Below, in pieces: positions 17,016 to 32,366 of a DNA stretch of 34,558 bases (its first letter is position 1; every line of letters starts with the position of its first letter). Below the pieces are notes generated by a model, which saw only the letters and a list, made by a program, of their open reading frames with translations, did not search any database and was not told where the DNA came from. This DNA comes from a virus, in IMG/VR virus record IMGVR_UViG_3300009151_005171, positions 1 through 34,558 of that record; one strand, 5' to 3'. The position numbers and the translations under genes were made by a program.

Positions 17016-17038
17016 CAAGAAACCTAATTGATTTCAAA

Positions 17039-18277: not shown

Positions 18278-18308
18278 ATAAATTCTCAGTAATGTAAAAA
18301 TTGTTGTT

Positions 18309-18337
18309 ATTATATAATAAAAAACGGGTGTTGTCAA
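18309..18337 (-). promoter_or_regulatory. Consensus sigma70-type promoter for the 412-residue gene
   Basis: On the minus strand TTGACA (18332-18337) and TATAAT (18309-18314) are both perfect and separated by exactly 17 bases. The -10 box ends 31 bases before the ATG at 18277. The TGA stop codon of the upstream glycosyltransferase-like fragment is embedded in the -35 box. Confidence 0.85.
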
Positions 18338-18669
18338 CTATTTAATTCTTGCCATATATTATTAATTATTTCATAAGTCGGAGCTAGCTGGTCATTATAT
18401 TTTTGCTGATAATTATTAAATATTTTTTGATTGTGAATTAACACAGGTTCTAATTCTTTTCGTAAATTGATTAATTCATTAACTGTAAGCTTTGATAATT
18501 TTTTTAACTCTCGCAGTATTAATTTAAGTTTAACATTAATATCGTCAACATCGTCGTATTCTTCTGACCACCATTGATCAAATGTACGATATCCTATTTT
18601 TTGTAGATACTTTAGATGCCCTTTACTTGCAATTATAATAAATGGTTGGCCAATAGAAATCGGTTTCAT
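18334..18669 (-). CDS. C-terminal fragment of split glycosyltransferase-like gene
   Basis: The 111-residue frame begins MKPISIGQPFIIIASKGHLK and contains YLQKIGYRTFDQWWSEEYD. This is the C-terminal part of the protein family encoded at 20794, 25509 and 28950, where the same segment reads KPI..FQPFVLIG...LGFKTFSEVIDESYD. In those intact relatives it follows SEKIF or GEKTL without a break. Here the preceding frame stops at SEKT and this one starts at an overlapping ATG (ATGA), in the -1 frame. It may be expressed by translational reinitiation as a separate chain, or the two halves may be one gene broken by loss of one A in the run at the junction. See the partner entry for the N-terminal part. 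Confidence 0.7.
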   Translation of the reverse strand: MKPISIGQPFIIIASKGHLKYLQKIGYRTFDQWWSEEYDDVDDINVKLKLILRELKKLSKLTVNELINLRKELEPVLIHNQKIFNNYQQKYNDQLAPTYEIINNIWQELNS

Positions 18670-19643
18670 GTTTTCTCACTAAAAAATAACGGCGAAAATT
18701 TAATTTGATTACTGTTAAATGCGCTTGCTACCTCGTCTTCGGTTATCGTTTCTGTTACTAACGATAAGAAAGTCTGACGATGATGATCTTCGGTTAATGA
18801 AAATGCTGGATTTATTATTGATAAATCGTATTCGAGATATAATGGATGTAAACTATCGATAATAATCGCAGCGTCATGTAAATCGTCTCTGTTATATTCG
18901 TGTACAAGATGTTGAGTCAATGTCGACGAAGCATAATAACTGACGATTCCCTTATTTAAAATTAAATTACGTTGTAATTCGCACACTAGTAAAGTTCTAT
19001 GCTTTCTAGTTGCACGATTGTAGCATAAAAATAAATTAGCATCAGTCGAAGGTGTGTAATCTATAATGTTCGAATATTGCTGCCAATTTGCTTGAAATGA
19101 GGATACAGGGTGATATGTAAAATTAGTATTACTAGGTGGAATTTCAAAATTACCATGAATAAAATGGACTTGATTTTTTTTAAACTGATACGCATTGATC
19201 CACTCTTGTAAAATATCCCAATCAGGTATTCCGCATGATCCTTCAATCGGATGTATAAACACTATCCTTGCACGATCTGCAGCAACATCATTGATAACAG
19301 TGTTGCTAATAAATTTAAATCCGTAGGGCTGCATTTTAAAAAAATAATTTCGAGTTCGTATAAAAATAGGATATATATATTTGGTGTTTGAATCGTTGAC
19401 ATTGCAAAATTTAATATTTCTATAATTGTGAAACCGTTCGGTTTTATATGCAGGTAATTTGAAATGTGCTAGATTGTTATGATCGTGATTTAATGCGTTT
19501 AATTTTTGTTTAAAATATTTTCGATCATGGCTAAACGGCAAAGTTAACTTGCCGTTTATACAGAAATTAGCAGGCCAATTATTAGGCACCCACCAATCAT
19601 AGTAGTCACTCCAGTTATCAAATGCAAATATAATATTGTTCAT
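18666..19643 (-). CDS. N-terminal part of split glycosyltransferase-like gene
   Basis: The 325 residues carry the family features in the same order as the intact relatives: IYPIFI, ARIVFIHPIEG (compare KILIANPWEG), VHFIHGNFEIPP, NLFLCYNRATRKHRTLLVCEL (compare KFICLNRRSHAHRFAIFTKL), then LSLVTETITEDE and a terminal FFSEKT. The frame ends exactly where relatives continue with KP and the PF.(L/I)IG segment, which is supplied by the next frame. Together the halves give about 435 residues, near the 392-417 of the intact copies. The promoter at 19654-19682 leaves almost no 5' leader and no ribosome site is visible. The glycosyltransferase assignment rests on a GT10/exostosin-like C-terminal pattern and island context, so it is tentative. 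Confidence 0.65.
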   Translation of the reverse strand: MNNIIFAFDNWSDYYDWWVPNNWPANFCINGKLTLPFSHDRKYFKQKLNALNHDHNNLAHFKLPAYKTERFHNYRNIKFCNVNDSNTKYIYPIFIRTRNYFFKMQPYGFKFISNTVINDVAADRARIVFIHPIEGSCGIPDWDILQEWINAYQFKKNQVHFIHGNFEIPPSNTNFTYHPVSSFQANWQQYSNIIDYTPSTDANLFLCYNRATRKHRTLLVCELQRNLILNKGIVSYYASSTLTQHLVHEYNRDDLHDAAIIIDSLHPLYLEYDLSIINPAFSLTEDHHRQTFLSLVTETITEDEVASAFNSNQIKFSPLFFSEKT

Positions 19644-19653
19644 TTATTTTTAA

Positions 19654-19682
19654 AGTATAACATCATTCTACTTATCTGTCAA
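19654..19682 (-). promoter_or_regulatory. Consensus sigma70-type promoter for the split gene
   Basis: On the minus strand TTGACA (19677-19682) and TATACT (19654-19659) are separated by exactly 17 bases, in the 62-base gap between divergent genes. Only 10 bases separate the -10 box from the ATG at 19643, so a start seven bases beyond it would leave a leader of about four bases. I see no equally good promoter for the plus-strand gene. Confidence 0.8.
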
Positions 19683-19705
19683 ATACTTTTTTACTAAATA
19701 TCTTG

Positions 19706-20206
19706 ATGTATACTCAAGGAACAATTCAAAATTTTTGGAATACTCAGCATACTACACTTGCATATATTCCGACAGAGTTTAAAAATCAAAATGATGTTAA
19801 CATGTGGTTAACTAGCGGATTTAATCAAGAAAATTTAATATTTGATCTATATGACATGAGTAATCCTACACCTAAATGGGCCGAATCGTTTTTTCGTTCC
19901 TTTAATGGAAATCATATAACACTAAGTTTTATGAGAATGAAAACAAATACAGCTCTTCCGTATCACGCTGACTTGTTTAAAAAATATATTCAGATTAATA
20001 AAATATTAGATCCTTCTAAAATTTCAAGAGCTGTTGTGTTTTTAGAAGATTGGCAACCTGGCCATATTTTAGAAATTAATGGGAAATCTATATCGCAGTG
20101 GCACGCAGGTGATTATGTGTTATGGAACTATGATACTCCGCACATGGCTGCAAATTTAGGATTAGTCCCGCGCTATACTGCACAGATTACGTTCACGAAT
20201 GTTTGA
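19706..20206 (+). CDS. 2-oxoglutarate/Fe(II)-dependent oxygenase-like protein
   Basis: The 166-residue protein has the minimal jelly-roll oxygenase signature: an H-x-D pair at His87 and Asp89 (LPYHADLFKKY), a distal His146 (DTPHMAANLG) and Arg156 (PRYTAQIT), which would bind iron and 2-oxoglutarate. The intervening RAVVFLEDWQPGHILEING resembles the aspartyl/asparaginyl hydroxylase-like branch. Substrate is unknown; a sugar, lipid or protein side chain is possible. I chose the ATG at 19706; a TTG lies just before it. It opens a three-gene plus-strand cassette (oxygenase, aminotransferase, glycosyltransferase-like), and its stop overlaps the next start by eight bases, indicating coupled translation. 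No convincing ribosome site or promoter is visible upstream. Confidence 0.75.
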   Translation: MYTQGTIQNFWNTQHTTLAYIPTEFKNQNDVNMWLTSGFNQENLIFDLYDMSNPTPKWAESFFRSFNGNHITLSFMRMKTNTALPYHADLFKKYIQINKILDPSKISRAVVFLEDWQPGHILEINGKSISQWHAGDYVLWNYDTPHMAANLGLVPRYTAQITFTNV

Positions 20207-20816
20207 TACTATAGACAAATTTGAAAAGATAATTGCAGAATTTTACGGAGCACCGTATGCAGTTAGCACAGATTGTTGTACGCACGCAATTGAATTGTGT
20301 TTACGGCTAACTGCTGCAAATAATGTAACGTGTCCTAACCATACCTATATTTCAATTCCGCATACATTTAACAAGTTAAATTTATCATGGTCATTTAGCA
20401 ATGATAGGTGGAAGGATTATTATTTTATAGGAAACACACATATAGTCGATGCTGCTGTATTGTGGAAAGAAAATTCGTATATTCCTGCTACATTTATGTG
20501 TTTAAGTTTTCAATTTAAAAAGCACTTATCATTAGGTCGAGGCGGAATGATACTATTAGACAACAAAATAGCATATGAAAAATTAATAAGAATGAGTTAC
20601 GATGGTCGAAGTCGAAATTTATCATGGGCAGAACAAGACATTAGTACAGTTGGGTATCATTACTATATGACACCAGAAACTGCGCAACTTGGTATTTCTA
20701 AATTAAATTTAGCAAAAGAAAAAATACCAAAACTGTGGTCGTCAAGTGACTACCCGAATTTATCAAATATGCAAATTTTTAAGGAAAATAATAATGGACG
20801 GATATCTTTTAATTGA
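20199..20816 (+). CDS. Short DegT/DnrJ/EryC1-type aminotransferase
   Basis: The sequence follows the PLP-dependent sugar aminotransferase family: an N-terminal FYGAPYAVSTDCCTHAIEL segment, CPNHTYISIPHTF, HIVDAA with Asp84 (cofactor nitrogen partner), and the Lys region CLSFQFKKHLSLGRGGMIL with Lys108 as the probable Schiff-base residue. GYHYYMTPETAQLGISKL matches the family's later Y..R...A..G..QL element. It has only 205 residues, against about 370 usually, and stops soon after that element, so the C-terminal domain is missing. A shortened but active form or a partner-dependent enzyme is possible. The overlap with genes on both sides argues it is maintained rather than decaying. It likely adds an amino group to a keto-sugar nucleotide. 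Confidence 0.8.
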   Translation: MFDTIDKFEKIIAEFYGAPYAVSTDCCTHAIELCLRLTAANNVTCPNHTYISIPHTFNKLNLSWSFSNDRWKDYYFIGNTHIVDAAVLWKENSYIPATFMCLSFQFKKHLSLGRGGMILLDNKIAYEKLIRMSYDGRSRNLSWAEQDISTVGYHYYMTPETAQLGISKLNLAKEKIPKLWSSSDYPNLSNMQIFKENNNGRISFN

Positions 20817-21972
20817 ATCTATTGATCAGGTGCGAACTGAAAAAACATTTGTCCGCAATGATTATCGAAGTACGATGTCGCAATATACAGAGACGCGTCT
20901 TTTTTTGAGAATGAAATATAAGATGCAGCCTACCGAGGCACTTGTACTAGTAGTAATGTACACAGACATGTCTGAAATTAATAAAATTGTTGATTACATT
21001 AACGAGTGTCGCTTTTCAAAATTATATTTCTTTGTCGAAGATGTGTTTAGACTTTCGTTGCCGAACAAACCTGCTGATTGTATAGATAGGTCACTAATTA
21101 ATCGATACCCGACAGAAGTTATCGCAGGAGAGTTAGAAGTTATTTCTCAAATTTTAAATCAAACAGCAGTTGAATATGAAATTTATCATAATGAGTACAA
21201 TTCGAGTTTTTTTGAAAAAAAATATAATCTAACAATTAATTATTTTGATATATTTTCTGCATCTATACCTGTAAATAAATGGATGGCGTATCAATTTACT
21301 TCGGTATTTGATTTTAAGATATCTTGTTTTAATCTAAGAAAAGATATTATTAGATTCTATATAGTTGCGTTGTTATATGGATCACCGTGTGTTATTTTAA
21401 CCTTAGGTAATCATTTTACAGTCGGCGAAGTTATCGATAATCAGCAACTGCCAGTTAACAAGTTTAGACCTGATATTACGAAAAAAATATTAGAAACTAC
21501 TGAATTTTTTAACAACAATAATGTTAAGTTAGAGTGGGATATTGCGTTTGATCAAAAAATTGATATTAAATATTTTGAATATAGCAATGTAATGCCTGCA
21601 GTCGTTAACAGCTTCTTAAGTCTAGTAACAGAAACAAGTTATTATTATCCAATGCCAACTTTTGGAGAAAAGACACTAAAACCAATTGTTGCACACCGAC
21701 CATTTATTATGATTGCACCTGCAGGGACTATTGCATTACTTAAAAATCTTAAATTTAAAACTTTTGATCAATGGTGGGACGAAAGTTACGATTTGATAAT
21801 TGATAATCATAAACGTCTAGAAGCAATTTATGATATAGTTGAAACAATTCTAAAAAAAGATAATCAAGAGTTAGTACAGATGCTAAACGAAATGCAACCT
21901 GTACTAGAGCACAATTACAAAAATCTCCGACATCTTCGAACTAATATGTGTTCTATTAATCATCTCGAATAA
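20794..21972 (+). CDS. Glycosyltransferase-like family protein (plus-strand copy)
   Basis: With the ATG at 20794 (MDGYLLIESIDQ), preceded by an AAGGAAAA ribosome site, the product has 392 residues; the frame runs open to 20746 but that would deepen the overlap with the aminotransferase gene. It belongs with three other genes in the window: the C-terminal FGEKTLKPIVAHRPFIMIAP and FKTFDQWWDESYD match their SEK.FKP..PF..IG and KTF...DESYD elements, and LSLVTET matches the split copy exactly. The central motif is weak (CFNLRKDIIRF in place of CLNRR..HR), making this the most diverged copy. The pattern is reminiscent of GT10/exostosin-type C-terminal halves; activity is not shown. It overlaps the nucleotidyltransferase gene convergently by 17 bases. 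Confidence 0.6.
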   Translation: MDGYLLIESIDQVRTEKTFVRNDYRSTMSQYTETRLFLRMKYKMQPTEALVLVVMYTDMSEINKIVDYINECRFSKLYFFVEDVFRLSLPNKPADCIDRSLINRYPTEVIAGELEVISQILNQTAVEYEIYHNEYNSSFFEKKYNLTINYFDIFSASIPVNKWMAYQFTSVFDFKISCFNLRKDIIRFYIVALLYGSPCVILTLGNHFTVGEVIDNQQLPVNKFRPDITKKILETTEFFNNNNVKLEWDIAFDQKIDIKYFEYSNVMPAVVNSFLSLVTETSYYYPMPTFGEKTLKPIVAHRPFIMIAPAGTIALLKNLKFKTFDQWWDESYDLIIDNHKRLEAIYDIVETILKKDNQELVQMLNEMQPVLEHNYKNLRHLRTNMCSINHLE

Positions 21973-22696
21973 TATCAGATTCGCTGCATGCAGTCCCGTG
22001 TTGTATTTCTATAATTTTGCATGGAGTGTTATACGGATTTGCTAACTTGTGCCAAGTGTTATTAGGAATGCAAAAGTTAGAATGTGCAGATAGTCGTTTT
22101 GAAGAATTATCTTCAAATTCAATCATACATTCTCCTTCACTAACGTGCCAGTATTCGGATCGATACTCGTGTTTTTGCATACTAAGACTTTTTCCAGGTA
22201 GAATAGTTAGTTCTTTTACTTTAGTACCTACAACTTCGTGTAGAACTCTATAATGTCCCCACAGTCGATCGGTTTTAGGTGCTTTCCATTCATCTAATAA
22301 CCAACTACTTGAATTTTGTTTAGTGCTACCTCCTACACCAAATACAAAGTCTACTCCTGCGATAGCCATTTCTGGAATGTTATCAGAAGTTCTATCGCCC
22401 CCGTTTGCAAAGATAATACGATCATTTGGATATAACATTTGAACTTGTTTAATTGCATCGACTGCATGATCGCTGTCATCATAAAATTGAATACAATGGT
22501 CTACAGATTTAAGATGTGAAATAATATGCAATCTCTCACCGATTAACATAAATGTCCTACCTTTTTTTCGAATCAACCAATCGTCACTGTTCACGCCAAC
22601 AACTAATCGATCCCCTAATTGTTTAGCTGCTTTAAAATATTCAATATGTCCACTGTGTAAAGGATCAAACCCTCCGGTAACTAACACTACTCTCAT
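21956..22696 (-). CDS. Nucleotidyltransferase-cupin fusion (sugar-phosphate activation)
   Basis: The 246 residues contain two domains. Residues 1-135 are a cytidylyltransferase-like fold with GGFDPLHSGHIEYF (His14 and His17 of the HxGH motif), GVNSDDWL, and a basic KKGR segment, like the HldE C-terminal and glycerol-3-phosphate cytidylyltransferase group. Residues about 150-240 are a cupin resembling the type II mannose-6-phosphate isomerase domain: LWGHYRVLHE, LPGKSLSMQKHEYRSEYWHV, and IPNNTWHKLANP. The pair suggests one protein that isomerises and then nucleotide-activates a sugar phosphate. It follows the sugar dehydrogenase gene by 17 bases and is last in the long minus-strand run. Which sugar is used cannot be told from sequence. 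Confidence 0.85.
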   Translation of the reverse strand: MRVVLVTGGFDPLHSGHIEYFKAAKQLGDRLVVGVNSDDWLIRKKGRTFMLIGERLHIISHLKSVDHCIQFYDDSDHAVDAIKQVQMLYPNDRIIFANGGDRTSDNIPEMAIAGVDFVFGVGGSTKQNSSSWLLDEWKAPKTDRLWGHYRVLHEVVGTKVKELTILPGKSLSMQKHEYRSEYWHVSEGECMIEFEDNSSKRLSAHSNFCIPNNTWHKLANPYNTPCKIIEIQHGTACSESDIIRDD

Positions 22697-22713
22697 TTAA
22701 TGTAATCTCTCTA

Positions 22714-23937
22714 TTAGTTAATTATTCTAGTATTGCCGTAGTGTATTACTGTTGATCCCGGAACACACGTAATTGTTCGCCACGGGTCTAGAATAACACT
22801 TCCCGGTTCAATATAAAAGTAAAACTGATCTGGTTTTATTTCGACCCCTGTGCCAAAATATGAAATTACTGGATTGTGTGCCATTAATATTACGGCCCTG
22901 CCACCTGCAATATCACCAGTCAACGGGTCGGCATACGACACTCTTATACCTTCTGCTTCTATAAAATGCCCTACTAATTCGCTGTAGCTGCCGATAGTGT
23001 ATTCAACATACGGTTTGTAAGCTCGGCCGTGAATAATTACAGGTAAGTTATATTGTTTAGATAGATCTACAAGTTTAAGTGCCATATGTTTAGCCTGTTG
23101 ATCTCTACTCTGCATTATTGTTTGAAATAAGTCGTATCCTAATTCAAGTTTTTCAGCTAAAAACCTTAATGCAATGTTATCTCTCGGGTGGCATGCTCCT
23201 GCATCACCTAGACCTGCAGTTAGGTATCGCGGACCGGTGATTCGTTGCGTAGCGTTTTTAAGGGCGTCGGTAACCACATCAACATTAATATTTCCATTTT
23301 TTTCTGCAACATCTTGAATCATATTTACTAATCCAATTTTTGCAGAAATAAAGGTGTTATAAAAAACTTTAATTGCTTCAGCTTCGTCCCAAGTTCCGAT
23401 ATTTATCGTTGGATCGTTTTGCATTAGCGGTTTATAAAAATCAACTAATAATTTTGCATCACCTGTGCAAGATCCATCTTCTGTTCCGATAATTATACAC
23501 TCTGGATTAATCATATCCCACTTGACACTGCCCATTGCAATTAGATAAGGGTTGTATACAAAGCGAGAATTAGTAATTAACGGTTTTAAATGCGCTCTGA
23601 CTGTTCCGGGTAATACAGTTGAGATTAATACTACTAGTTGATCCGGTGTAACATACTGATTAATCTCGTTAAGAACTTGTTGAACAATACTATAGTCAAA
23701 ATCTTTTGCCGGTAAATTCGAAATAGGACTACTACCACCGTATCTCGGATCGTGTGGCGTCGGTACTGCAACAAATATTATATCTCTGTCTAATACTGCT
23801 GCGCTAATAGAATCCATTATTAGAATACGAGCAGCAGGATCTTTAACTATATCATACCCTACCACATCGTATTTTTCTGCCATTACTTCTGCACACGGCA
23901 ATCCCAATTTTCCGCATCCTATCATTAAAATTTTCAT
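22714..23937 (-). CDS. UDP-glucose/GDP-mannose dehydrogenase family protein
   Basis: The 407-residue protein has the family layout: an N-terminal NAD-binding Rossmann segment (MKILMIGCGKLGLPCAEVM), VAVPTPHD at about 56-63, STVLPGT, a central EAIKVFYNTFISAKI with Lys190 and Asn194, and the catalytic cysteine Cys249 in GLGDAGACHPRDN. The UDP-sugar binding C-terminal region follows, with HGRAYKP near 305. It oxidises the C6 hydroxyl of a sugar nucleotide to a uronate. One oddity: the usual PEFL motif with its catalytic Glu reads NPYLIAMGS, so Tyr replaces Glu. I believe phage homologues share a similar sequence. AGGATATTT precedes the start. It likely supplies uronic-acid building blocks for the island's glycan. 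Confidence 0.85.
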   Translation of the reverse strand: MKILMIGCGKLGLPCAEVMAEKYDVVGYDIVKDPAARILIMDSISAAVLDRDIIFVAVPTPHDPRYGGSSPISNLPAKDFDYSIVQQVLNEINQYVTPDQLVVLISTVLPGTVRAHLKPLITNSRFVYNPYLIAMGSVKWDMINPECIIIGTEDGSCTGDAKLLVDFYKPLMQNDPTINIGTWDEAEAIKVFYNTFISAKIGLVNMIQDVAEKNGNINVDVVTDALKNATQRITGPRYLTAGLGDAGACHPRDNIALRFLAEKLELGYDLFQTIMQSRDQQAKHMALKLVDLSKQYNLPVIIHGRAYKPYVEYTIGSYSELVGHFIEAEGIRVSYADPLTGDIAGGRAVILMAHNPVISYFGTGVEIKPDQFYFYIEPGSVILDPWRTITCVPGSTVIHYGNTRIIN

Positions 23938-23967
23938 AAATATCCTATTATTTGTTTTGTGTTTATA

Positions 23968-24687
23968 TTATTGTGTATAACAGACATTGTTTAAAACATT
24001 TTTAAGGTTAGGCACTAACCATTCGAGGGTTAATCGACTATGGTCAGCTGAAACATAATGAAAATTAGGCAAGGGTTTAATGTGGTTGTGTTGTAACCAC
24101 TGATACCCGTTGTCAGGTATCCAATTAACTTTTTTAGCTAGCCATTGATACGGCTCGATAAATAAATCCTGCATTGGCACAAACCAAGACCAAAAAATAC
24201 ATGGCACGTTAAAACTGTCACACAGGTATTGAAGTGTAATTATATCTTGCATAACTTTATAATTTATCCATTTACTCATTGCAACTTGTGGTACCCACAC
24301 ATTGTCGATTTTTGTTGTTTCATTTATAAACGATGCAAAATTATCTTGGTTATTTACTATGTTCCATGTATAACATCCGATATCATTAATTCGATGGCCG
24401 TCACACAGCGAAACATCGTTGTTTTGTGACTTGTTTTCAAAGGCAGAAAAACCAGTTACAACTCTTGAAGGTTCTGTCAATTGGATAACAACCACATCGA
24501 CATTATTATTACTAAGTGCGTAGTGTAGTTTTTCAATATAAAAACTATTGCCTGCTCCGCAACTTGATGCCCTAATTAGGTCCATATCCCAGGCTGTTGC
24601 TAAAAAATAAGGCCAGCTTTCGCCGTAACTAGTCGATGAATGGCTATCGCCCATTGCCAATATTGTTTTTTTAGTAGATATATTCAT
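23968..24687 (-). CDS. SGNH/GDSL-type hydrolase
   Basis: Block I is MGDSHSS near residue 12 (nucleophile Ser), block II has SSCGAGNSF supplying the oxyanion Gly, and the C-terminal block reads VSADHSRLTLEWL, giving the Asp-x-x-His or Asp-His pair. The 239-residue length is normal. No signal peptide is seen, so it would act inside the cell. SGNH enzymes remove or transfer acetyl and other acyl esters on glycans, lipids and peptides. The start lies one base after the stop of the preceding gene, itself SGNH-like, and AAGGAAAA precedes it. The two neighbours are similar in plan but not near-identical, so they may act on different positions. Confidence 0.75.
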   Translation of the reverse strand: MNISTKKTILAMGDSHSSTSYGESWPYFLATAWDMDLIRASSCGAGNSFYIEKLHYALSNNNVDVVVIQLTEPSRVVTGFSAFENKSQNNDVSLCDGHRINDIGCYTWNIVNNQDNFASFINETTKIDNVWVPQVAMSKWINYKVMQDIITLQYLCDSFNVPCIFWSWFVPMQDLFIEPYQWLAKKVNWIPDNGYQWLQHNHIKPLPNFHYVSADHSRLTLEWLVPNLKNVLNNVCYTQ

Positions 24688-24688
24688 G

Positions 24689-25507
24689 TTATATTTTTCC
24701 TTTTCCTTTTAATTGCAATAATAAGAAATTATCAACGTAATATTCATGCGAGTCAACTGAAGGATGGACGTGATCATCATAAAAAGTTAAATCTTGATCT
24801 TTACAGTATTCGTATAACCCACTACTTTCTTTCCAAAATACCCAATCTTTAAAATTTATCATGTCATATAAATATTTAACATTTCTGTAAATATCGTAAG
24901 TCATAGGTTCATGATGCACCCATCGGTTAAGGATATCTAAACATGCTGGATAGTGCATTATGTCCATATATGTTTGGTTTATCAATTTAATGCCCATGCT
25001 TGCACAGTACCATTGTAACCGTAACATATTTTCGTACGACTGGATAGCAAGGTTTTCATTACAATAGAACTTAGATATTAAATGTCTATTAAATCTTGAA
25101 ATATGTTGATTTGTAAAACTGTCGTGCATCGAGCCACTAAGATATCCGTCTTTCGGGTACACACTGCAGCTTTCGTTTTCTTTAGTATCGATAAAATTTA
25201 CAGGATTTGTTGCCCATTCTTCTGGATTGTGTAATGTTACAAAGTCAGGCAACTCGGGTGAAATAAATAAATCTTTTCTGTCTATTCCGGACCACATCAC
25301 TGCAACTAAAATATTTTTCGGATCTACGCCGTTGTCGATTAATATTTGTGTTTGAAAGATCGCAGTTTTTGCAATCCATGAATTTCCGCAAGATCCTTGA
25401 CCCCGATTGTATAAACCTGCATTCAATCTTTCTGCGAGAAAATGCGGCCACCGTTTTTCGTAGTTATCTGAAAAACTACAGCCCGATGTAACTAAGTGGG
25501 TAATCAT
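24689..25507 (-). CDS. SGNH-like hydrolase, second copy
   Basis: The 272-residue protein begins MITHLVTSGCSFSD, where Ser in GCS takes the place of the usual GDS nucleophile motif; GQGSCGNSWIAK is block II, VAVMWSGIDRKD resembles block III, and DDHVHPSVDSHEYYVDNFL holds the Asp and His of block V. The Cys-for-Asp change in block I is common in phage-associated SGNH-like proteins. There is no signal peptide or membrane segment. The gene follows the glycosyltransferase-like gene at 25509 by one base, with GAGGA as ribosome site, and is followed by the next SGNH gene after one base. A role in adding or removing acyl groups on the product of the adjacent transferase is inferred. Confidence 0.75.
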   Translation of the reverse strand: MITHLVTSGCSFSDNYEKRWPHFLAERLNAGLYNRGQGSCGNSWIAKTAIFQTQILIDNGVDPKNILVAVMWSGIDRKDLFISPELPDFVTLHNPEEWATNPVNFIDTKENESCSVYPKDGYLSGSMHDSFTNQHISRFNRHLISKFYCNENLAIQSYENMLRLQWYCASMGIKLINQTYMDIMHYPACLDILNRWVHHEPMTYDIYRNVKYLYDMINFKDWVFWKESSGLYEYCKDQDLTFYDDHVHPSVDSHEYYVDNFLLLQLKGKGKI

Positions 25508-25508
25508 T

Positions 25509-26762
25509 TTAATCCTCTAATAAATCGTGTAATTTGTTCGATAATAAATCAATCGACATGCGTTGGCGTTCAATAAACAAGTCATGATTGTATTTTAATA
25601 TTGGCCATATTTGCTTCAATACTTCTTCTAAATCGTCTCTTGAAATAAATTCTACAATAGCAGCGGTTGCTTTTTGCAGACGTATATTTTTATCAGGTTC
25701 TAAATCATAACTTTCGTCAATTACTTCAGAAAATGTTTTGAAACCTAATGTTCTAAACGTTTCTAATCCAAGATGGGATCCGATAAGCACAAACGGCTGA
25801 AAAAATATTATTGGTTTAAAAATTTTTTCACTGTAAAACCCTTTAATATCAACAAATGTTTCTGCTACAACATGTAGATAACTGCTATAAAATTTTTCAG
25901 AATTCGCATCTTCAACTGGATTTGGAATTTGGCTGCTTCCCCAATCAACCGGGTCAATTTCAACTGGTAAATGATATGGAATTTCATTTTCAATATTAAG
26001 ATGGACCCATTCTTGATAAATTTCAGGATAATAACATTCAAATGCAGTTTTTTGCGCATTGTAATAGCTAAATATCGGTGCATTGTCGTCTGCTGAATTG
26101 CCTGTTTTTGAGAGACTTAATAATCCTTGATCTCGGTACGGAAATAATTTAGTAAATATTGCAAATCTGTGAGCATGCGATCGTCTATTTAAACAAATAA
26201 ACTTAAATTTACGAGGCCCATTTTCAAAGATTGCAGCATACCCTTTTTTCCGGTCATCGTCAATGTTGCGCCATCTTGTATGCATTTCCCAAATATTATA
26301 ATATAGTATTGCATAGTTTGGAGAAGGAGTCATATTGCCGCACATTACTACAAAATTTGCATACGATAAGTCGTATCGGACCTTTAACGGTTCGACAATG
26401 TCGTCGTACCATTCTAACTGCCATCCTTCCCACGGATTAGCTATTAGTATTTTACACATGCCGTTTTTGATTGATTGTATTATGCTAGCAGGAATACCTA
26501 ATACATTAACATATTCTCTCAATTGCGAAAAATCATACATTATCGGATAATAAAATTTAACGTCTTTTGGAATTGTAGTGTGTGTGTTAAATATTCTTTC
26601 ATAGTCGTTATCGACTCCTAAAAAAGCACCGGGCGAAAGAGAATTAATAATTCCGTGCTTGCAAATAACAGATCGCGGAGTTGCGTTTTGAAACGGAGAT
26701 CTATTTAAAATATAAAAGTTCTTGCCGTTGTTTTCAAAAAATAAGTTAATTTTGGATGTCAT
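25509..26762 (-). CDS. Glycosyltransferase-like family protein
   Basis: The 417-residue protein contains, in order, INLFFENNGKNFYILNRSPF, FYYPIMYDFSQL, KILIANPWEGWQ, FVVMCGNMTPSP, KFICLNRRSHAHRFAIFTKL, FYSEKIFKPIIFFQPFVLIG and LGFKTFSEVIDESYD. These elements recur in the genes at 28950, 20794 and the split 18334-19643. The Lys after Glu in SEK and the following PF..(I/L)G are reminiscent of donor-binding segments of GT10 fucosyltransferases and exostosins; I infer a glycosyltransferase fold but no family is proven. It overlaps the upstream SGNH gene by 17 bases and is followed after one base by another SGNH gene, so transferase and hydrolase genes alternate here. Confidence 0.65.
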   Translation of the reverse strand: MTSKINLFFENNGKNFYILNRSPFQNATPRSVICKHGIINSLSPGAFLGVDNDYERIFNTHTTIPKDVKFYYPIMYDFSQLREYVNVLGIPASIIQSIKNGMCKILIANPWEGWQLEWYDDIVEPLKVRYDLSYANFVVMCGNMTPSPNYAILYYNIWEMHTRWRNIDDDRKKGYAAIFENGPRKFKFICLNRRSHAHRFAIFTKLFPYRDQGLLSLSKTGNSADDNAPIFSYYNAQKTAFECYYPEIYQEWVHLNIENEIPYHLPVEIDPVDWGSSQIPNPVEDANSEKFYSSYLHVVAETFVDIKGFYSEKIFKPIIFFQPFVLIGSHLGLETFRTLGFKTFSEVIDESYDLEPDKNIRLQKATAAIVEFISRDDLEEVLKQIWPILKYNHDLFIERQRMSIDLLSNKLHDLLED

Positions 26763-27516
26763 TTAGTTTTCCTATTAAAAATTCCGAAATTAGTAAGTGG
26801 CCGACTGCATTAGGGTGACCGCATTTAAATACGTCATTGCTTGCAATAGTGTGAACTGAATTAGAAATATAATTATTATCTAGCAATCTTCTCCACTCTT
26901 CTTCATACTTTTTAACAATGCCAATATGCCAATAGTCTGGATCTATAAACGGCATATATTTGTTACCTACAACCGGTAGCATATGAAATAATAAATAATT
27001 TTTAGTCTTTGCTCCTATTAATGATTTAATTGCGTATACCTGATGCATTGTTTCTAAAAAAATACTGTCGTCGGTTTGTAATGTCATTATACGTTTTAAT
27101 GAGTTATCAATAGTAGAATCATGAAATTCAGGAAAGTGATGCGCAGTAATGTGAAAATATCTCATAAATCGATTATCATAGAATTCTTTTCGTATCGCTT
27201 CCGTCAACCCTATTAAAATTAAATCACCGTCGCAGTAAGATGCATTCATTCGCTCGTGTGCTTCTGTTACAGTATCAGGTGATTCGATATTTAATAAGTA
27301 ATTGCAAACTAACCTAAATATAGTAGCGTTGCTGCATCCTGGAATTGCTAAGTTTTTAACAGGAACGTTAAACTGTTTTCCTAGCAATGCAGGCCATGCA
27401 AGGTTACTAGGGAAATTATAATCAATGTGGTTTTCTAATTTTTTTATATTATCGGATAACCCTTGGCCAAATGTATTTGAATCACCGAATACTACAATTC
27501 GTTTTATGTCATGCAT
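26746..27516 (-). CDS. SGNH/GDSL-type hydrolase, third copy
   Basis: The 256-residue protein carries a canonical block I (RIVVFGDSNTFGQGL), block II (NLAIPGCSNATIFRL, with the Gly and Asn), block III-like LIGLTEAIRKEF, and a C-terminal CGHPNAVGHLLISEFL providing the catalytic His. That makes it the most canonical of the three hydrolases in the window. No export signal is visible. It overlaps the radical SAM gene by eight bases upstream and the glycosyltransferase-like gene by 17 bases downstream, so the three are very probably translated together. An acyl transfer or deacylation on a sugar or lipid intermediate is the likely reaction; the substrate is unknown. Confidence 0.8.
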   Translation of the reverse strand: MHDIKRIVVFGDSNTFGQGLSDNIKKLENHIDYNFPSNLAWPALLGKQFNVPVKNLAIPGCSNATIFRLVCNYLLNIESPDTVTEAHERMNASYCDGDLILIGLTEAIRKEFYDNRFMRYFHITAHHFPEFHDSTIDNSLKRIMTLQTDDSIFLETMHQVYAIKSLIGAKTKNYLLFHMLPVVGNKYMPFIDPDYWHIGIVKKYEEEWRRLLDNNYISNSVHTIASNDVFKCGHPNAVGHLLISEFLIGKLNDIQN

Positions 27517-28915
27517 GGGTTGCTAACCTTTTACAATAATTTTTAAATTCGATTAACTCAGGGAATGTTTGATTAAAATTTGTGTTTTTTCGAATGTCAT
27601 ACTCAGTGACAAACTTATAAAAATCTATACAATTTTGATCCCACGTGGCTTGATCAGGTTCTTCTTCTAGTAAATTACAGATTAAATCTATTCTATGGAT
27701 GTCACTTTCGTACAGCATTGCATAATGGCCAGTTTGTAAAAAATTACTATCTTTATATTTTTCTACTAATTTTTTTAATTTTAAAATAGTATTAGATTTT
27801 AACTCAGTAGGCGCTAAATTTAAATGTAAGTATGGTGGCCATCTTAAATAGTTAATGCTAAGAATGATTGTATTTTCAGAATATGATTTATAGTATTTTT
27901 TTCTTAGATTTAAAATTTCTTCTAAGAACTCATCTAATGTACTTAACGAACAAATATTTACAGTTGACATTATTCCAACAAATGCATTGCTTGGAAGATT
28001 TTCAATTAAATTTTCTAAATTATTATGCCATTCTTGATAATTTAATCCATACCGAATATATTCTGCTTGTGCACCAGTAGACTCGTTACTAGTAAACAAT
28101 TGAATTTGTTTAATCCGAGGAGCAATATTGTTAATATATTTAATCAATCGTTGAATTAAATTAACAGGCACATTTAAATTTGTGTTAATACCTAATATTA
28201 AATTAGGATTTAAATTTGGATCGTTTTCTAATTTTTCAAGAAGGTCCCATACATCTTTACTTAATAATGGCTCACCCCCTGTCAATCGTAAATTCTCTAA
28301 ATTTTTAGATAGTTCAGGCCACCATTTCCAAAATGCAGTAACGTAGGGATTTTCTTCTTTGTGGTGATACGGAAACCGATTTATTTGTTTTAAATGATCT
28401 AAATTACCAGTATTCCAACTTGTGGGATACGGCCCATGCGAGGTTATTTCTTCGACCCATCTACTACTAACATCAGGACTGCAATATGCACATTTAAAAT
28501 TACAAACATTTGAAAAACTAATTTCTAAATATGACGGATTAATATTTTCTGTTTTTGTTTCTAATATCAACGGAATATGTTTCCACGCCCACGGTTCAGT
28601 TGTTTTATAATACCGATCGCTATAAGTCCCACCAAGATCTTCTGCCTTCCAACAATAATCACATTCGGCTGGTCGGTTACCATCTAACATTTCCTGCATC
28701 TGTTTCTTTTTAAATTGGGTGTTATGTAGCGCAGTATGATCCTTTTCTAATTCGTCAAGCGGTATTTTATGAGGAGCAGGATGGTGACAACTATGATTCC
28801 ATCCTGTTTGCAAGTACAGTGTCGTTTGCAGCCATTTAGCTGCACAAAATGTAGGACCTATGTTATCAAGTTCGGTAACCCGTGTTGAAAAAAATTGTGT
28901 TTGCTCGTCGATCAT
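27509..28915 (-). CDS. Radical SAM protein, twitch/SPASM-like
   Basis: The core iron-sulfur motif is CNFKCAYC (Cys138, Cys142 and Cys145) after a LEISFSN strand, followed by the SAM-binding LTGGEPLL at about 211-218 and GINTNLN. The N-terminal 100 residues add Cys24, Cys43 and CDYC at 85-88 within RPAECDYCWKAEDLGG, which could ligate an auxiliary cluster. At 468 residues it is longer than a bare radical SAM domain. Reaction is unknown: phage and bacterial relatives of this layout lie in polysaccharide and peptide-modification clusters. AGGAACTCA precedes the ATG. The neighbours are a glycosyltransferase-like gene upstream and, with an 8-base overlap, an SGNH hydrolase downstream, which argues for a sugar, lipid or short-peptide substrate handled by the same pathway. 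Confidence 0.85.
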   Translation of the reverse strand: MIDEQTQFFSTRVTELDNIGPTFCAAKWLQTTLYLQTGWNHSCHHPAPHKIPLDELEKDHTALHNTQFKKKQMQEMLDGNRPAECDYCWKAEDLGGTYSDRYYKTTEPWAWKHIPLILETKTENINPSYLEISFSNVCNFKCAYCSPDVSSRWVEEITSHGPYPTSWNTGNLDHLKQINRFPYHHKEENPYVTAFWKWWPELSKNLENLRLTGGEPLLSKDVWDLLEKLENDPNLNPNLILGINTNLNVPVNLIQRLIKYINNIAPRIKQIQLFTSNESTGAQAEYIRYGLNYQEWHNNLENLIENLPSNAFVGIMSTVNICSLSTLDEFLEEILNLRKKYYKSYSENTIILSINYLRWPPYLHLNLAPTELKSNTILKLKKLVEKYKDSNFLQTGHYAMLYESDIHRIDLICNLLEEEPDQATWDQNCIDFYKFVTEYDIRKNTNFNQTFPELIEFKNYCKRLATHA

Positions 28916-28949
28916 TGAGTTCCTGTTAAATTAAATTTCTATATAATAA

Positions 28950-30197
28950 TTATAATAAATTTTTTAAATCTAAAGATAATTGGTCAAATATCAAATCAAA
29001 TCGCTGAACAAGCAGCGAATGATTATGATCAAGTATTGGCCAAAGGTGTTGCATTACTTCATGCAAGTCATTTCTGTTTAAAAAATCAATAGCTGCATTT
29101 GTTGCTTTTTCTACCCTAAGCTCATTGTCAATTTCATCATCGTAGCTTTCGTCAATAACATCTGAAAATGTTTTATAGCCTAACTGCCGAAGTCTAGCTA
29201 ATCCTTGATATTGGCCTATAAGAACAAACGGTTGGAAATAAATAAAAGGTTTAAATATTTTTTCGCTAAAAAACCCCGTATTTTCTACTTTAGTTTCGCA
29301 AACAATATGCAAATAACATTTATAAAATTTTTCAGAGTACAAATCGGTAGTAGGATTCGCTTCGAGAAAATCGTACGGATCAAGTTCTGTAGGTAAAACT
29401 AATGGTAACGATTCTCTAATTTTTAAATTTCCCCACTCTTTATGTATGTCAGGGAATTTTTTTCTGAATAATCTTTTTTGTACATCAAAGTACAATAACC
29501 TTGGCGGCTTGTCATCGTCGCAAAAGCCTGTTAACCAAAAGCTAAGTAATCCCTGATTGCGATACGGAAATAATTTAGTAAGTACTGCAAATCTAAAGTA
29601 TGCTGCACGGCGATTTAAACAAATAAACTTATATGTACGTGGACTTTGATTAAAAATAGTATCGTGTGCAATCTTTCTATCGTTATCGGTATCTCGGTGT
29701 CTAGAAGCTATCTCCCAGTGATTAAAATATACAGTATTGTACCTACAATGATTGGTATAGTTAGCAGACATGATTACAAATTTATCAACAGTTATGTGGT
29801 TGTTAGCTGCTATTGATTCAACTAAACGTTCGTATGTTGGCCAACACCACCCTTCGTACGTGCATACTATTAGCACTTTGCACGTTCCTGTTTCGATTGC
29901 CGAAAGAATATTAAATGGAATAAAAAGACTGTCAACGTGATCTAATAGTTGAGTAAGGCTAAAGATTATAGGATAGTAAAATTTTTTCCCTTCAGGTATA
30001 GCAGTGTTAACTACAAATCTTTTAAAAAATTGTGATCCTTGTCCACCGAAATATGCATCAGTATGGCAATTATTTGTACATTCAACAATTACCTGTGGTA
30101 CTAAATCGGCCGGAATTGCATTTAAATACGGTTGCCTGTTAAAAATTGAGGCATGAATACCATTGTTCTCAAAGTATAAGTTAATTTTTTCTGTCAT
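28950..30197 (-). CDS. Glycosyltransferase-like family protein
   Basis: The 415-residue product is the closest relative of the 25509 protein along its whole length: INLYFENNGIHASIFNRQPY, FYYPIIFSLTQL, KVLIVCTYEGW, FVIMSANYTNH, KFICLNRRAAYFRFAVLTKL, GFFSEKIFKPFIYFQPFVLIG and LGYKTFSDVIDESYD. The pair therefore arose by duplication within or before this island. The same tentative glycosyltransferase inference applies. AAGGACAATA precedes the ATG. It stands between the tandem sulfotransferase-like genes and the radical SAM gene, with gaps of 20 and 34 bases, so it should be cotranscribed with both. There is no membrane segment; a cytoplasmic enzyme is likely. Confidence 0.65.
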   Translation of the reverse strand: MTEKINLYFENNGIHASIFNRQPYLNAIPADLVPQVIVECTNNCHTDAYFGGQGSQFFKRFVVNTAIPEGKKFYYPIIFSLTQLLDHVDSLFIPFNILSAIETGTCKVLIVCTYEGWCWPTYERLVESIAANNHITVDKFVIMSANYTNHCRYNTVYFNHWEIASRHRDTDNDRKIAHDTIFNQSPRTYKFICLNRRAAYFRFAVLTKLFPYRNQGLLSFWLTGFCDDDKPPRLLYFDVQKRLFRKKFPDIHKEWGNLKIRESLPLVLPTELDPYDFLEANPTTDLYSEKFYKCYLHIVCETKVENTGFFSEKIFKPFIYFQPFVLIGQYQGLARLRQLGYKTFSDVIDESYDDEIDNELRVEKATNAAIDFLNRNDLHEVMQHLWPILDHNHSLLVQRFDLIFDQLSLDLKNLL

Positions 30198-30217
30198 TAT
30201 TGTCCTTGCACACCCAT

Positions 30218-30865
30218 TTAAAAGTTATACCCAAATGTTTTAATATCAATATAATGTAGTTCTGCTATAAGATTTTTAGTTTCGTCGGAATAATATGAAC
30301 GGTATTCTGTTTCTGATATATCAAATCGAAACGGACTAGTATTAGTATCATCCAAGCAAAAATATTCCATTAACGGTTTAATATCAATTGCTGCATGCTC
30401 ACCCCTAATAATATAAGTTGCTTGTTGATACCCGGTTGATGATATATAACTTAACCAATTCATTTGAGGTGTAAGCGTGTGATAGTGGGTGTGTATTCTG
30501 TTAGAATTAATATCTTTTACAAATTTGTTCACTGTATTAGTAACTTTGCCCGTTTCGATGGTCTTTCTAAATTCTCGAACTATATCCGGCAACGTATCTA
30601 TGTCTGCGTCAAGTACGTTTTTAATTTTATATATAAATCTTGCCCATGGATTCATCACAATACCGATTGTTGATATTTCTGGATAAAGTGCATGAACTTC
30701 TTTAAGACTTAATCTGTTATCTTCAATTTCATAATCTTGTATCATCCGTAATGCTGAAATTTTTTGATTAAGAAACCATTCATGTAGAGGCCATGCGTAA
30801 TATGCACACATCTGCGGTACGATAATTGTAAAACGCGAATCGTCAGTTTTGTAAGTTTTTTTCAT
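30218..30865 (-). CDS. Sulfotransferase-2-like protein, copy 1
   Basis: The 215-residue sequence has the central and C-terminal pattern of the Sulfotransfer_2 family: GIVMNPWARFIYK (family vRdPy.R..S.y, the 3'-phosphate binding strand), TPQMNWLSY, YIIRGEHAA, and a closing YRSYYSDETKNL...HYIDIKTFGYNF, which matches the yYtdet..lv...y..Di..FgY ending. However, the N-terminal loop that should hold the PAPS-binding Lys (PKTxxT/S) reads IIVPQMCAYYAWP, with Gln and no GT/S pair. It may use another donor, bind without catalysis, or be diverged. The next gene upstream is a clear paralogue. Intergenic spacing of 27 bases suggests cotranscription. Confidence 0.65.
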   Translation of the reverse strand: MKKTYKTDDSRFTIIVPQMCAYYAWPLHEWFLNQKISALRMIQDYEIEDNRLSLKEVHALYPEISTIGIVMNPWARFIYKIKNVLDADIDTLPDIVREFRKTIETGKVTNTVNKFVKDINSNRIHTHYHTLTPQMNWLSYISSTGYQQATYIIRGEHAAIDIKPLMEYFCLDDTNTSPFRFDISETEYRSYYSDETKNLIAELHYIDIKTFGYNF

Positions 30866-30892
30866 TATGATTTAAAGATAGTATTATTTATT

Positions 30893-31537
30893 TTAAAATT
30901 TATATCCAAATGTTTTTATGTCAGTGGCATGTAACTTAGCGACAAAATTTTTAATTTCATCTGTGTAATACGGATAATAATCTAAAGTTGGAAAATTAAA
31001 ATTAAAAGGCTCGTGATCTGTTAGACAAAAATAATCAATTAATGGTTGAGTATCTTCGGCTGCATACTCGCCGCGAACTATGTATTCAACTTGAGTTCTG
31101 CATCCGTTATTGAAATTATAACTTAACCAATTCATTTGTGGTTTTAAAAAATCACAAAAACACCAGTTTTGATCTTCGCTAATTTTAGCTAACAATCTAT
31201 TTAAATTACGTGCAACTTTGCCTGTTTCGATTGTTTCTTTAATACTTATATCAATAGACGACAGGGTGTCAGGGTCATATTCTAATATTTTAATATACCT
31301 ATAAATAAATCGAGCCCATGGATTCATTACAACACCAATGGTTGAAATTCCAGGATACAGTTCATGAACTTCCTTAAGATTTAACCTTCCGCTTTCAATT
31401 TCGTAATCTTGTATTAGTCTCAATCTTGCAACTTCGTTTTTAGTTAACCATTCATGTAGCGGCCATGCGTAATATACACTCATCTGAGGTGCAATAATTG
31501 TAAAGAATGAATCATCAGTTTTGTAAGTAGTTGACAT
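30893..31537 (-). CDS. Sulfotransferase-2-like protein, copy 2
   Basis: The 214-residue protein is about half identical by eye to the downstream gene, sharing TYKTDDS, PQM..YYAWPLHEW, IQDYEIE, VMNPWARFIY, ETIETGKV, PQMNWLSY, YI.RGE.AA, YFCL and DIKTFGY. It shows the same family ending (YYTDEIKNFVAKLHATDIKTFGYKF contains the typical Di..FgY) and the same altered N-terminal loop (IIAPQMSVYYAWP). The consistent change in both copies implies a functional subfamily rather than random loss. Its ATG lies one base past the TAG of the upstream conserved gene, so it should be translated right after it. A glycan-directed transferase is the likely role, not proven. Confidence 0.65.
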   Translation of the reverse strand: MSTTYKTDDSFFTIIAPQMSVYYAWPLHEWLTKNEVARLRLIQDYEIESGRLNLKEVHELYPGISTIGVVMNPWARFIYRYIKILEYDPDTLSSIDISIKETIETGKVARNLNRLLAKISEDQNWCFCDFLKPQMNWLSYNFNNGCRTQVEYIVRGEYAAEDTQPLIDYFCLTDHEPFNFNFPTLDYYPYYTDEIKNFVAKLHATDIKTFGYKF

Positions 31538-31538
31538 A

Positions 31539-32366
31539 CTAAGTCCAAAGGTAATTGCGAACTTTAATAAGTCTAATCATCATTTCTTCGTCTTGTGTTT
31601 CATGAAACTCTTCAATTTCAGCCGAAAGATCTCTCAGTGGTTTTGCTTCTGCGCGTTCTTCTTCGGTTTCGTCATGTGCTAAGATGTCACCATGGTTTTC
31701 ACGCATGCGATCGTAATATGCACTTAGACCTGATTCTTCCATGGGCTCTGAACGATTTGGATATTCTACAGTCCACCAGGTATATAAGTCTAATACTTCC
31801 TGAGCTGCAATTGCTTGAGGAGTTAATTTACCATAGTTCTCGTCATCCTCTTCGACTCCCCAGCTTGGGTCATAGGTCAAACTTCTTGCCCAATCTAAGT
31901 AACCAAGTCCGGCTTGTTTACAGCGCCACTCGCGGGTACGACTAAACAACCAGCTCGAAGGTGCATTGTACTTTTGGCTTTCAGATTCGTTCCACCGGAC
32001 ATGGTTCTGTGCTAGTTCAGTTTCGACAAAATCAACAAGCTGGTTAAACAAGCAAGGTAAAAATCTGTATCCTACATCGCACCAATCACCGGGCTTAATA
32101 TCTCTCGAATGTGCAGTTAGCGCATGTGTTTTTGTTACCCATCTGTTGTTAATGTAATATTTCACATTATAGAGTTTATCTGGTATGAACATTATAATAT
32201 TTTGTGCAGTATCAAGGGCATTGTCTGCGATCCAATATCGAAGCGGGTGGTTAGTCTTTGCAAGTTCCTTGATTGCTTTCCACCCCGGGCCAGTTTCAAA
32301 TTCGGGATACGTAGTACCGCGGATCCAATCCGCAAACTCACTGCATGACCAATAGTTACTTCTCAT
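31539..32366 (-). CDS. Conserved-looking phage protein, unknown function (275 aa)
   Basis: The N-terminus MRSNYWSCSEFADWIRGTTY, followed by PGWKAIKELAKTNHPLRYW, is a sequence I believe is widely conserved in T4-like and other large phages, without an assigned role. The middle is Trp- and Tyr-rich (PGDWCDVGYRFLPCLFNQL, SRTREWRCKQAGLGYLDW) and the C-terminal third is strongly acidic (EEDDENYG, HDETEEERAEAK). No signal peptide or catalytic motif is obvious. AAGGATAACAAACAA before the ATG is a slightly distant ribosome site lying inside the end of the pyrophosphatase gene. It belongs by position to the housekeeping genes rather than the glycan island, though only one base separates it from the sulfotransferase-like pair. 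Confidence 0.7.
   Translation of the reverse strand: MRSNYWSCSEFADWIRGTTYPEFETGPGWKAIKELAKTNHPLRYWIADNALDTAQNIIMFIPDKLYNVKYYINNRWVTKTHALTAHSRDIKPGDWCDVGYRFLPCLFNQLVDFVETELAQNHVRWNESESQKYNAPSSWLFSRTREWRCKQAGLGYLDWARSLTYDPSWGVEEDDENYGKLTPQAIAAQEVLDLYTWWTVEYPNRSEPMEESGLSAYYDRMRENHGDILAHDETEEERAEAKPLRDLSAEIEEFHETQDEEMMIRLIKVRNYLWT

Follow-up and report, generated by a model that had tools for sequence, protein, structure and literature searches.

Why would a phage carry some 14 kb of sugar genes? The question is raised by the IMG/VR record IMGVR_UViG_3300009151_005171, which was analysed over its whole length of 34,558 bases (hereafter the window) and comes from a T4-like phage known from metagenomes alone. 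Its sugar-gene block (18,334–32,366; hereafter the island) is densely packed and mainly on the minus strand, with gaps between neighbours of −23 to +59 bases. It encodes a UDP-glucose/GDP-mannose-type 6-dehydrogenase (UGD), related transferases (GTa to GTd), an N-twitch radical SAM enzyme, an RfaE2-like nucleotidyltransferase fused to a cupin, three SGNH-like proteins and several accessory proteins. Our data suggest that the core of this set is very likely one working pathway, which recurs in dozens of other uncultured phages, frequently with its gene order kept and in some cases as protein fusions. On balance, we favour the reading that the island is a single phage-encoded glycan-assembly pathway, whose acceptor would most likely be a host envelope glycan and whose effect would be to hinder competing phages.

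The transferases form a family with a predicted GT-B fold

GTc and GTd are 46% identical across their whole length, and the C-terminal ~100 residues of GTb are 37% identical to GTc and 35% to GTd. The smaller of the two open reading frames (ORFs) listed under GTa in Table 1 matches the C-terminal part of GTb (39% over 82 amino acids (aa), E 3e-17), and a profile of the larger one draws the same family, its direct match to GTc being weak (E 0.02). Judged by these similarities, the two ORFs look like one family member that a frame change has split and that is probably decaying. The four related transferase-like genes listed in the initial annotation do share one family, with the correction that one of them is broken into two ORFs.

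No convincing Pfam or PHROG match was obtained for GTb, GTc or GTd; GTc matched no Pfam family at E ≤1, and no glycosyltransferase family appeared among the 25 Pfam families listed of the 75 matched by 89 members. Searches by tblastn with GTc, GTb and a central family member gave no match in 50,697 phage records, a PDB sequence search with GTb gave none, and a PDB search with the family profile returned three rows at E ≤1, of which the top one, a glycosyltransferase, was not significant (E 0.19). There are at least 498 relatives among 599 IMG/VR stretches retained by a conserved-motif scan, and the 236 full-size members in the fetched loci fall into 157 groups at 60% identity.

An AlphaFold (AF2) model of GTc, built from an 89-sequence alignment, reached a predicted local distance difference test score (pLDDT) of 90.2 and a predicted template modelling score (pTM) of 0.91, and has a GT-B fold. 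The VIA list for this model is headed by GT10 and exostosin structures (Z 12–13), with H. pylori alpha-1,3-fucosyltransferase at Z 13.4, exostosin-1/2 at Z 12.6 and T4 beta-glucosyltransferase at Z 12.1, and Foldseek placed trehalose-phosphate synthases on top (E 5e-4). Of the best 22 matches in a viral structure library, 20 come from uncultured Caudovirales phages and one from a mimivirus, all 21 being uncharacterized proteins; the remaining entry carries the name of a nucleotide-sugar dehydrogenase. The aligned transferases are mostly 17–46% identical, but R199, K313, E350, Y352, D353, R361 and N392 are kept in all 89, E301 and E312 in 88 and E112 in 83. In the order of its R, E and EK positions, the family is similar to the GDP-fucose site of GT10 enzymes. 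GT10 fucosyltransferases and GT47 exostosins share the GT-B fold with GTc but are only ~10% identical to it, and GTc lacks a Pfam match. Thus, the model indicates that the family works like a GT-B enzyme that is not filed in GT10 or GT47. Structure prediction had been named in the initial annotation as a check on these proteins, and it returned an enzyme fold rather than a non-enzyme.

Core genes recur and cluster in other phages

Loci carrying UGD were taken as the best 80 of at least 598 by UGD similarity, a choice that biases UGD identity upward, and were reduced to 62 distinct loci, as judged by shared identical proteins, before being scored with profiles from the window genes. Transferases and radical SAM enzymes were each present in 50 of the 62, the nucleotidyltransferase-cupin in 31 and SGNH proteins in 19; the accessory genes were rarer, with the oxygenase-like OX in 9 and the DegT-type aminotransferase-like, sulfotransferase-fold (ST) and U genes in 3 each. 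UGD, transferase and radical SAM occurred jointly in 42 loci, together with the nucleotidyltransferase-cupin in 24 and with SGNH in 13. The radical SAM profile used for the loci was iterated and may include other subfamilies, NF033640 being the stricter test. A frequent order on one strand was transferase, radical SAM, transferase, UGD and nucleotidyltransferase-cupin, in agreement with the minus strand of the window.

Clustering was then measured on 20 contigs of 104–326 kb, picked by size from loci known to carry UGD or transferase, with 2000 position rotations on contigs treated as circular and a distance of 3 kb. The counts rest on 64 of 68 transferase rows (the four weakest dropped), 19 of 28 UGD rows (nine partial ones below 185 bits dropped) and radical SAM rows above cut-off. 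A transferase lay within 3 kb of UGD in 13/19 cases, compared to 1.6 expected and a rotation maximum of 7, and a radical SAM gene in 8/19 (1.4 expected, maximum 6). For transferase and radical SAM the count was 16/64 (4.9 expected, maximum 15). The UGD–transferase clustering holds in both contig subsets (7/9, maximum 4; 6/10, maximum 5), and UGD–radical SAM exceeds the rotations in one of them (6/9, maximum 5).

Fused proteins link dehydrogenase, transferase and SGNH

Thirteen non-identical UGD–transferase ORFs of 781–787 aa were found on thirteen contigs, and one SGNH–transferase ORF has 681 aa. The transferase model is also matched by a 788-aa entry of the viral library that bears a dehydrogenase name. 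None of the 14 fused transferase parts is in the 89-sequence alignment, and all of them keep E112, R199, E301, E312, K313, E350, Y352, D353, R361 and N392. The pattern (S/T)EK..KP missed all 13 UGD–transferase fusions because P317 is Ala in all of them and K316 varies. Read from their sequences, the fusions are the strongest individual argument for a pathway shared by dehydrogenase, transferase and SGNH protein. A joint glycan pathway had initially been proposed from overlap and spacing, and it is borne out here in that the core genes are not scattered and the fusions go beyond mere spacing.

Putative supply enzymes

The assignment of UGD is firm (phrog_9148, 311.6 bits), although its TIGR03026 score of 149.6 bits is under the cut-off of 189.8. 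It keeps the Rossmann motif GCGKLG and the catalytic C249 in an HPRD context, and the nucleotidyltransferase-cupin, also firmly assigned by its two Pfam matches, keeps HSGH and HEYRSEYW; these motifs were scored against patterns that we take to be characteristic of the families. The nucleotidyltransferase and cupin domains remain fused in 30 of 44 distinct matches.

The radical SAM enzyme is likewise a firm assignment, scoring far above the family cut-off for N-twitch proteins (NF033640, 311.2 bits against a curated 170); by tblastn it gave no match in the 50,697 phage records. N-terminal to its CxxxCxxC motif are four conserved cysteines, C24 (99% of 178 full-length sequences), C43 (95%), C85 and C88 (100% each). 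By analogy with BtrN, these would probably suffice for an extra cluster. BtrN is a characterised twitch enzyme that oxidises an aminocyclitol; in the part of PMC9012708 available, twitch domains are described as C-terminal extensions, whereas the extra cysteines of the window enzyme are N-terminal. Arrays of NF033640-matching radical SAM genes, some of them under cut-off, were also observed on two phage contigs (17 on G010 and 14 on G007, the records of loci L047 and L160).

Relatives in cellular genomes

A family-wide exact DNA pattern for the transferases hit 56 loci in 84,980 bacterial and archaeal genomes, a lower bound because the matching was exact, and 50 of the 56 hold a relative by hidden Markov model. 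An earlier bacterial scan with alignment A2, which gave 97 pattern matches and no relatives, was overturned by this result. We therefore rejected a virus-only family, as the gene is present in isolates such as Methylobacterium, Caulobacter, Shimia and Azospirillum. In Methylobacterium C25 it is followed by GDP-mannose 4,6-dehydratase, epimerase and full-length DegT genes; GDP-mannose dehydratase adjoins it in Shimia biformata, epimerase-family genes do so in Nitrospirillum and Caulobacter B11, and in Methylobacterium J-030 a DegT gene lies 4.5 kb away. Ten neighbour proteins hand-chosen from the named-isolate loci comprised seven sugar-nucleotide or DegT proteins, one methyltransferase and two without a match. 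On a broader basis, 105 of 138 listed neighbour ORFs from 24 loci were aligned, two of these loci (L164 and L170) being phage-like contigs of a metagenome-assembled genome (MAG). Among the 98 families matched, GDP_Man_Dehyd was counted six times and Glycos_transf_2 three times, and many others are unrelated to sugars, e.g. 2-hydroxyacid dehydrogenases (4) and the major facilitator superfamily (2). It looks as if cells use the transferase family for nucleotide-sugar chemistry and the full set is a phage arrangement.

The two MAG contigs just mentioned (L164, PBPT01000016; L170, PBPT01000082), from Neomarinimicrobiota, carry UGD, transferases, SGNH, radical SAM and a short DegT gene. That most of the island had been found in a bacterium was considered and rejected, since the assembly has T4-type capsid genes on two long contigs. 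L164 and L170 are probably large phage contigs binned into the MAG, their identity being judged from match positions.

Comparison with published phage clusters

The initial annotation knew of no named system with this set. This was partly wrong, because host recognition clusters (HRCs) of pelagimyophages, with rfaE, UDP-glucose 6-dehydrogenase, glycosyltransferases and radical SAM cassettes, have been published (PMC7029224). The pelagimyophage and cyanomyophage HRCs share with the window a T4-like aquatic carrier and these enzyme types, and the window matches them in combining a T4-like carrier with several glycosyltransferases and rfaE-like and UGD enzymes. As described in the available part of the paper, HRCs are hypervariable, lie by tail fibres and are proposed to change the host surface against co-infection. 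GT8 is their commonest transferase family and that part mentions no UGD–transferase fusion; "SGNH" and "sulfotransferase" have no occurrence in its main text.

Among named T4-like phages, Synechococcus phages Bellamy and S-SSM7 and Pelagibacter phage HTVC008M have UGD, glycosyltransferases and a methyltransferase. A 2-oxoglutarate (2OG) oxygenase, as in the window, is found in the HTVC008M and S-SSM7 clusters; all three clusters carry NadE-like genes, and those of Bellamy and HTVC008M also a carbamoyltransferase. Identity of their UGD to that of the window is 59% in Bellamy, 47% in HTVC008M and 28% (over 76% of the length) in S-SSM7. The window transferase family and the N-twitch radical SAM enzyme were each found in none of five phages (these three, AG-345-E15 as a 66-kb record, and P-SSM2), whereas the same queries detected all 20 large contigs. 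In a partial literature search, the phrase "twitch domain-containing radical SAM" returned no phage paper by title, which is no proof of absence, and of the four papers with at least three of the terms radical SAM, UDP-glucose 6-dehydrogenase, glycosyltransferase and myophage, PMC7029224 alone has all of them. Sugar and lipopolysaccharide (LPS) islands of T4-like aquatic phages are thus already known; what is new is a GT-B family lacking a Pfam match that is tied to UGD by order and fusion.

Island layout and accessory genes

The window is a 34.6-kb fragment that lacks a full capsid gene, and a gp23-type capsid is present in 10 of 12 related virus records. Its T4-like assignment rests on a DNA ligase fragment (phrog_114) at one end and tail PHROGs at the other, where the tail genes include one 3781-aa fibre. 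A megablast of positions 1–20000 gave no match in the 50,697 phage records. All genes named in the initial annotation were found in place and most family assignments hold (Table 1). The island had been ended at 31,537; U starts after a gap of 1 base, and the island may reach 32,366. At 12802–15061, adjoining the tail genes, a phrog_8420 endonuclease, a phrog_29277 protein and a QueD-like gene are consecutive.

Table 1. Genes of the island, with positions in the window and the main basis of each assignment
Feature	Position	Strand	Basis
GTa, family transferase, two ORFs (18666–19643, 18334–18669)	18334–19643	−	GTb similarity of C-terminal ORF; strain deletion
OX, 2OG-Fe(II)-oxygenase-like	19703–20206	+	HxD motif; PF05118 E 0.05
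Miniature DegT-type aminotransferase-like, 205 aa	20199–20816	+	PF01041 1.7e-16; SFQFKK
GTb, GT-B family transferase	20794–21972	+	ATG at 20794; ORF-list start GTG at 20746
RfaE2-like nucleotidyltransferase + mannose-6-P-isomerase-type cupin fusion	21956–22696	−	PF01467, PF01050; HSGH, HEYRSEYW
UGD, UDP-glucose/GDP-mannose-type 6-dehydrogenase	22714–23937	−	phrog_9148 1.4e-92; C249 HPRD, GCGKLG
SG1, SGNH-like, non-canonical His block DHSR	23968–24687	−	GDS motif
SG2, SGNH-like (GCS ... DDHVHP), DUF6071	24689–25507	−	DUF6071 E 8e-8
GTc, GT-B family transferase, modelled	25509–26762	−	AF2 model (scores in text)
SG3, GDSL/SGNH-like, lacking Asp of DxxHP	26746–27516	−	PF00657 E 0.001
N-twitch radical SAM enzyme	27509–28915	−	NF033640 1.1e-92; CNFKCAYC + four conserved N-terminal Cys
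GTd, GT-B family transferase	28950–30197	−	46% to GTc
ST1, sulfotransferase-fold, lacking canonical PAPS 5′ loop	30218–30865	−	phrog_3347 1e-5; model (score in text)
ST2, tandem paralogue of ST1 (56%)	30893–31537	−	phrog_3347 E 3e-5
U, function not assigned, island membership tentative	31539–32366	−	homologues in four other transferase-bearing contigs

An aminated and acylated product had been suggested, and the two sulfotransferase-like genes raise sulfation as well; these three fared differently. The miniature DegT protein has a pyridoxal phosphate (PLP)-lysine block but only 205 aa, compared to ~360–390 aa at full length; homologues in other contigs form a miniature subfamily of 195–228 aa beside members of 366–395 aa. 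Going by sequence, it is a putative aminotransferase, and the aminated product, which rests on this gene, is not supported as stated. The miniature DegT gene overlaps an oxygenase-like gene by 8 bases both in the window and in L090 (10514–11104). The assignment of OX itself is weak.

All three SGNH-like proteins have an N-terminal G[DC]S block. SG1 has no Pfam or PHROG match, the PF00657 match of SG3 is under cut-off, and SG2 is the only one keeping both canonical motifs; the SGNH (G[DC]S, DxxH(P)), PLP-lysine and 3′-phosphoadenosine 5′-phosphosulfate (PAPS)-loop (Lys/Gly-Thr) motifs were judged by patterns that we assume to be canonical. The acylated product, which rests on these three proteins, is likewise not supported as stated: two of them lack a canonical catalytic residue.

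The ST proteins are weakly assigned by sequence. For a model with pLDDT 79, all 50 VIA rows listed are sulfotransferases (top, heparan-sulfate 6-O-sulfotransferase, Z 10.1), and Foldseek gave no sulfotransferase at E ≤0.001. No conserved Lys or Gly-Thr follows strand 12–15 in 12 aligned sequences, and the PAPS 5′ loop is missing. These sequence features suggest that the family possibly uses another donor or performs no catalysis, and with a fold lacking its cofactor loop in 3 of 62 loci the sulfated product is not upheld. The motifs NPW.R and DI...Y.F were observed in this family (window 30218–31537; L341–L356). The homologues of U lie on distinct contigs in loci with transferases, a co-occurrence that is partly selection, as these loci were fetched by transferase or UGD.

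Strain variation

Across the 62 loci, themselves chosen by UGD similarity, the median identity of UGD to its window counterpart is 71%; in the same comparison the best-matching transferase has 28% (49 loci). Even with this selection taken into account, the supply enzyme looks stable and the transferases quick to change. A 99.3% identical strain, represented by two contigs that are identical over the stretch compared, lacks window positions 18,397–19,662 (1266 bases); the junction has a 5-base microhomology and leaves a GTa remnant. The MazG-like gene at 32374–32760 is 94.3% identical between the strains, compared to 99–100% in the other genes compared, which is likely recombination.

Proposed pathway and its acceptor

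From the gene content, recurrence, fusions, fold and conserved residues described above, we infer the reactions, their order, the acceptor and the purpose as follows. UGD would convert a nucleotide hexose (UDP-glucose, if homology is a guide) by oxidation into a nucleotide uronic acid. Another sugar or polyol phosphate would be activated and isomerised by the nucleotidyltransferase-cupin. By comparison with BtrN, the radical SAM enzyme would probably act on a carbon of a sugar, either oxidising or epimerising it. The products would be attached to the acceptor by several GT-B transferases that diverge rapidly, and the SGNH proteins may add or trim acyl groups. The acceptor would most likely be a host envelope glycan at the cytoplasmic face, such that the cell surface is altered during infection and competing phages are hindered. 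The host envelope is our first choice because of the published precedent and the cellular relatives.

Several observations weigh against this reading. UGD and radical SAM are close in only 2/10 cases in the transferase-selected contigs (rotation maximum 4), and the transferase–radical SAM counts stay within the rotation maximum in each half (10/23, maximum 12; 6/41, maximum 8). As the DegT, ST and OX genes stand outside the core, phages must differ in the product they make. The 13 UGD–transferase fusions are 57–96% identical to one another, with transferase halves at 41–94%, and may stem from one event. Few UGD (3), short or long DegT (6) and radical SAM (10) genes were seen in the 56 bacterial loci, and no nucleotidyltransferase-cupin; several of these matches come from assemblies that contain T4-type capsid genes. 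The cellular context thus supports sugar chemistry but not this set. GTa is broken in the window and deleted in the close strain. Between the strains, amino-acid changes are relatively more frequent in 13 genes of the island, with 28 nonsynonymous and 14 synonymous (N/S) differences, than in five flank genes, with 8 and 18 (Fisher p 0.006; U counted with the flanks, GTa left out), which is a hint only because 22 of the 26 flank differences sit in one gene. Finally, a protein with at least four transmembrane segments lies within 5 kb of UGD in just 2 of 62 loci by a crude hydropathy count, which found a multi-pass protein in 10 of the 56 bacterial loci. A surface change would therefore have to borrow host export machinery.

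This last point makes the virion a serious rival as acceptor, as multi-pass membrane proteins were missing near UGD in 60 of the 62 loci. The same pathway would then act in the cytoplasm and add sugar to tail fibres or capsid, which would hide or tune the particle. In the window, the island and tail genes are no more than 1.4 kb apart and the 3781-aa fibre is on that side, and mycobacteriophage virion glycosylation is mentioned in the available part of PMC12619734. However, phrog_677, the tail family followed, was found in 7 of the 20 large contigs but never within 20 kb of a full-length UGD (linear coordinates), so that tail adjacency as a rule was rejected for this family, and some cellular relatives lie among GDP-sugar genes, as in surface polysaccharide clusters. 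A sequence pattern for tail-connector proteins matched in none of the 62 loci, to which we attach no weight. We regard the virion as a possible acceptor, with a lower probability than the host envelope.

It is improbable that the transferases glycosylate phage DNA to escape restriction, as the T4 alpha- and beta-glucosyltransferases do. The T4 beta-glucosyltransferase is among the closest folds, and virus-encoded transferases hypermodifying DNA are cited in the part of PMC12619734 available; against this, the UGD and SGNH fusions and the cellular relatives in sugar clusters do not fit, and PF00303 (thymidylate synthase/dCMP hydroxymethylase) was not found in 12 of the 20 large island contigs and is present in 8, in records that may be incomplete.

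Very unlikely, in our view, is a loosely held block of genes taken up from hosts ("stuffer DNA") that has hardly any function or none. In its favour are the lower G+C of the island (33.1% for 18,334–31,537, compared to 38.2% in the left and 36.7% in the right flank), the split transferase gene, the strain deletion, the raised N/S between strains and the published cyanophage LPS-type genes, which the available part of PMC3037559 leaves as functional or stuffer. Against it stand the recurrent order, the in-frame fusions, residues invariant over highly divergent proteins and, within loci chosen by UGD similarity, the well-kept UGD.

Implications for T4-like aquatic phages

Returning to the glycan-assembly pathway that we favour, a more specific form of it can be put forward only tentatively. 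The supply module of UGD, nucleotidyltransferase-cupin and radical SAM enzyme may make a radical-modified, uronic-acid-type nucleotide sugar, which hypervariable GT-B transferases, sometimes fused to UGD, would place on an envelope or virion target chosen by each lineage. Diversification would then track competition between phages and between phage and host, and the system would be widespread and undescribed.

For the sugar genes of T4-like aquatic phages, the choice between function and genome filler has been left open in print, as far as the available part of PMC3037559 goes. In the variant of the window, the in-frame fusions, the recurrent order and the invariant residues argue that it works. 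The UGD–transferase fusion protein and the radical SAM enzyme with its probable extra cluster are handles for bench work, and a further one is a transferase family of hundreds whose nearest entries in the viral structure library are mostly "uncharacterized".

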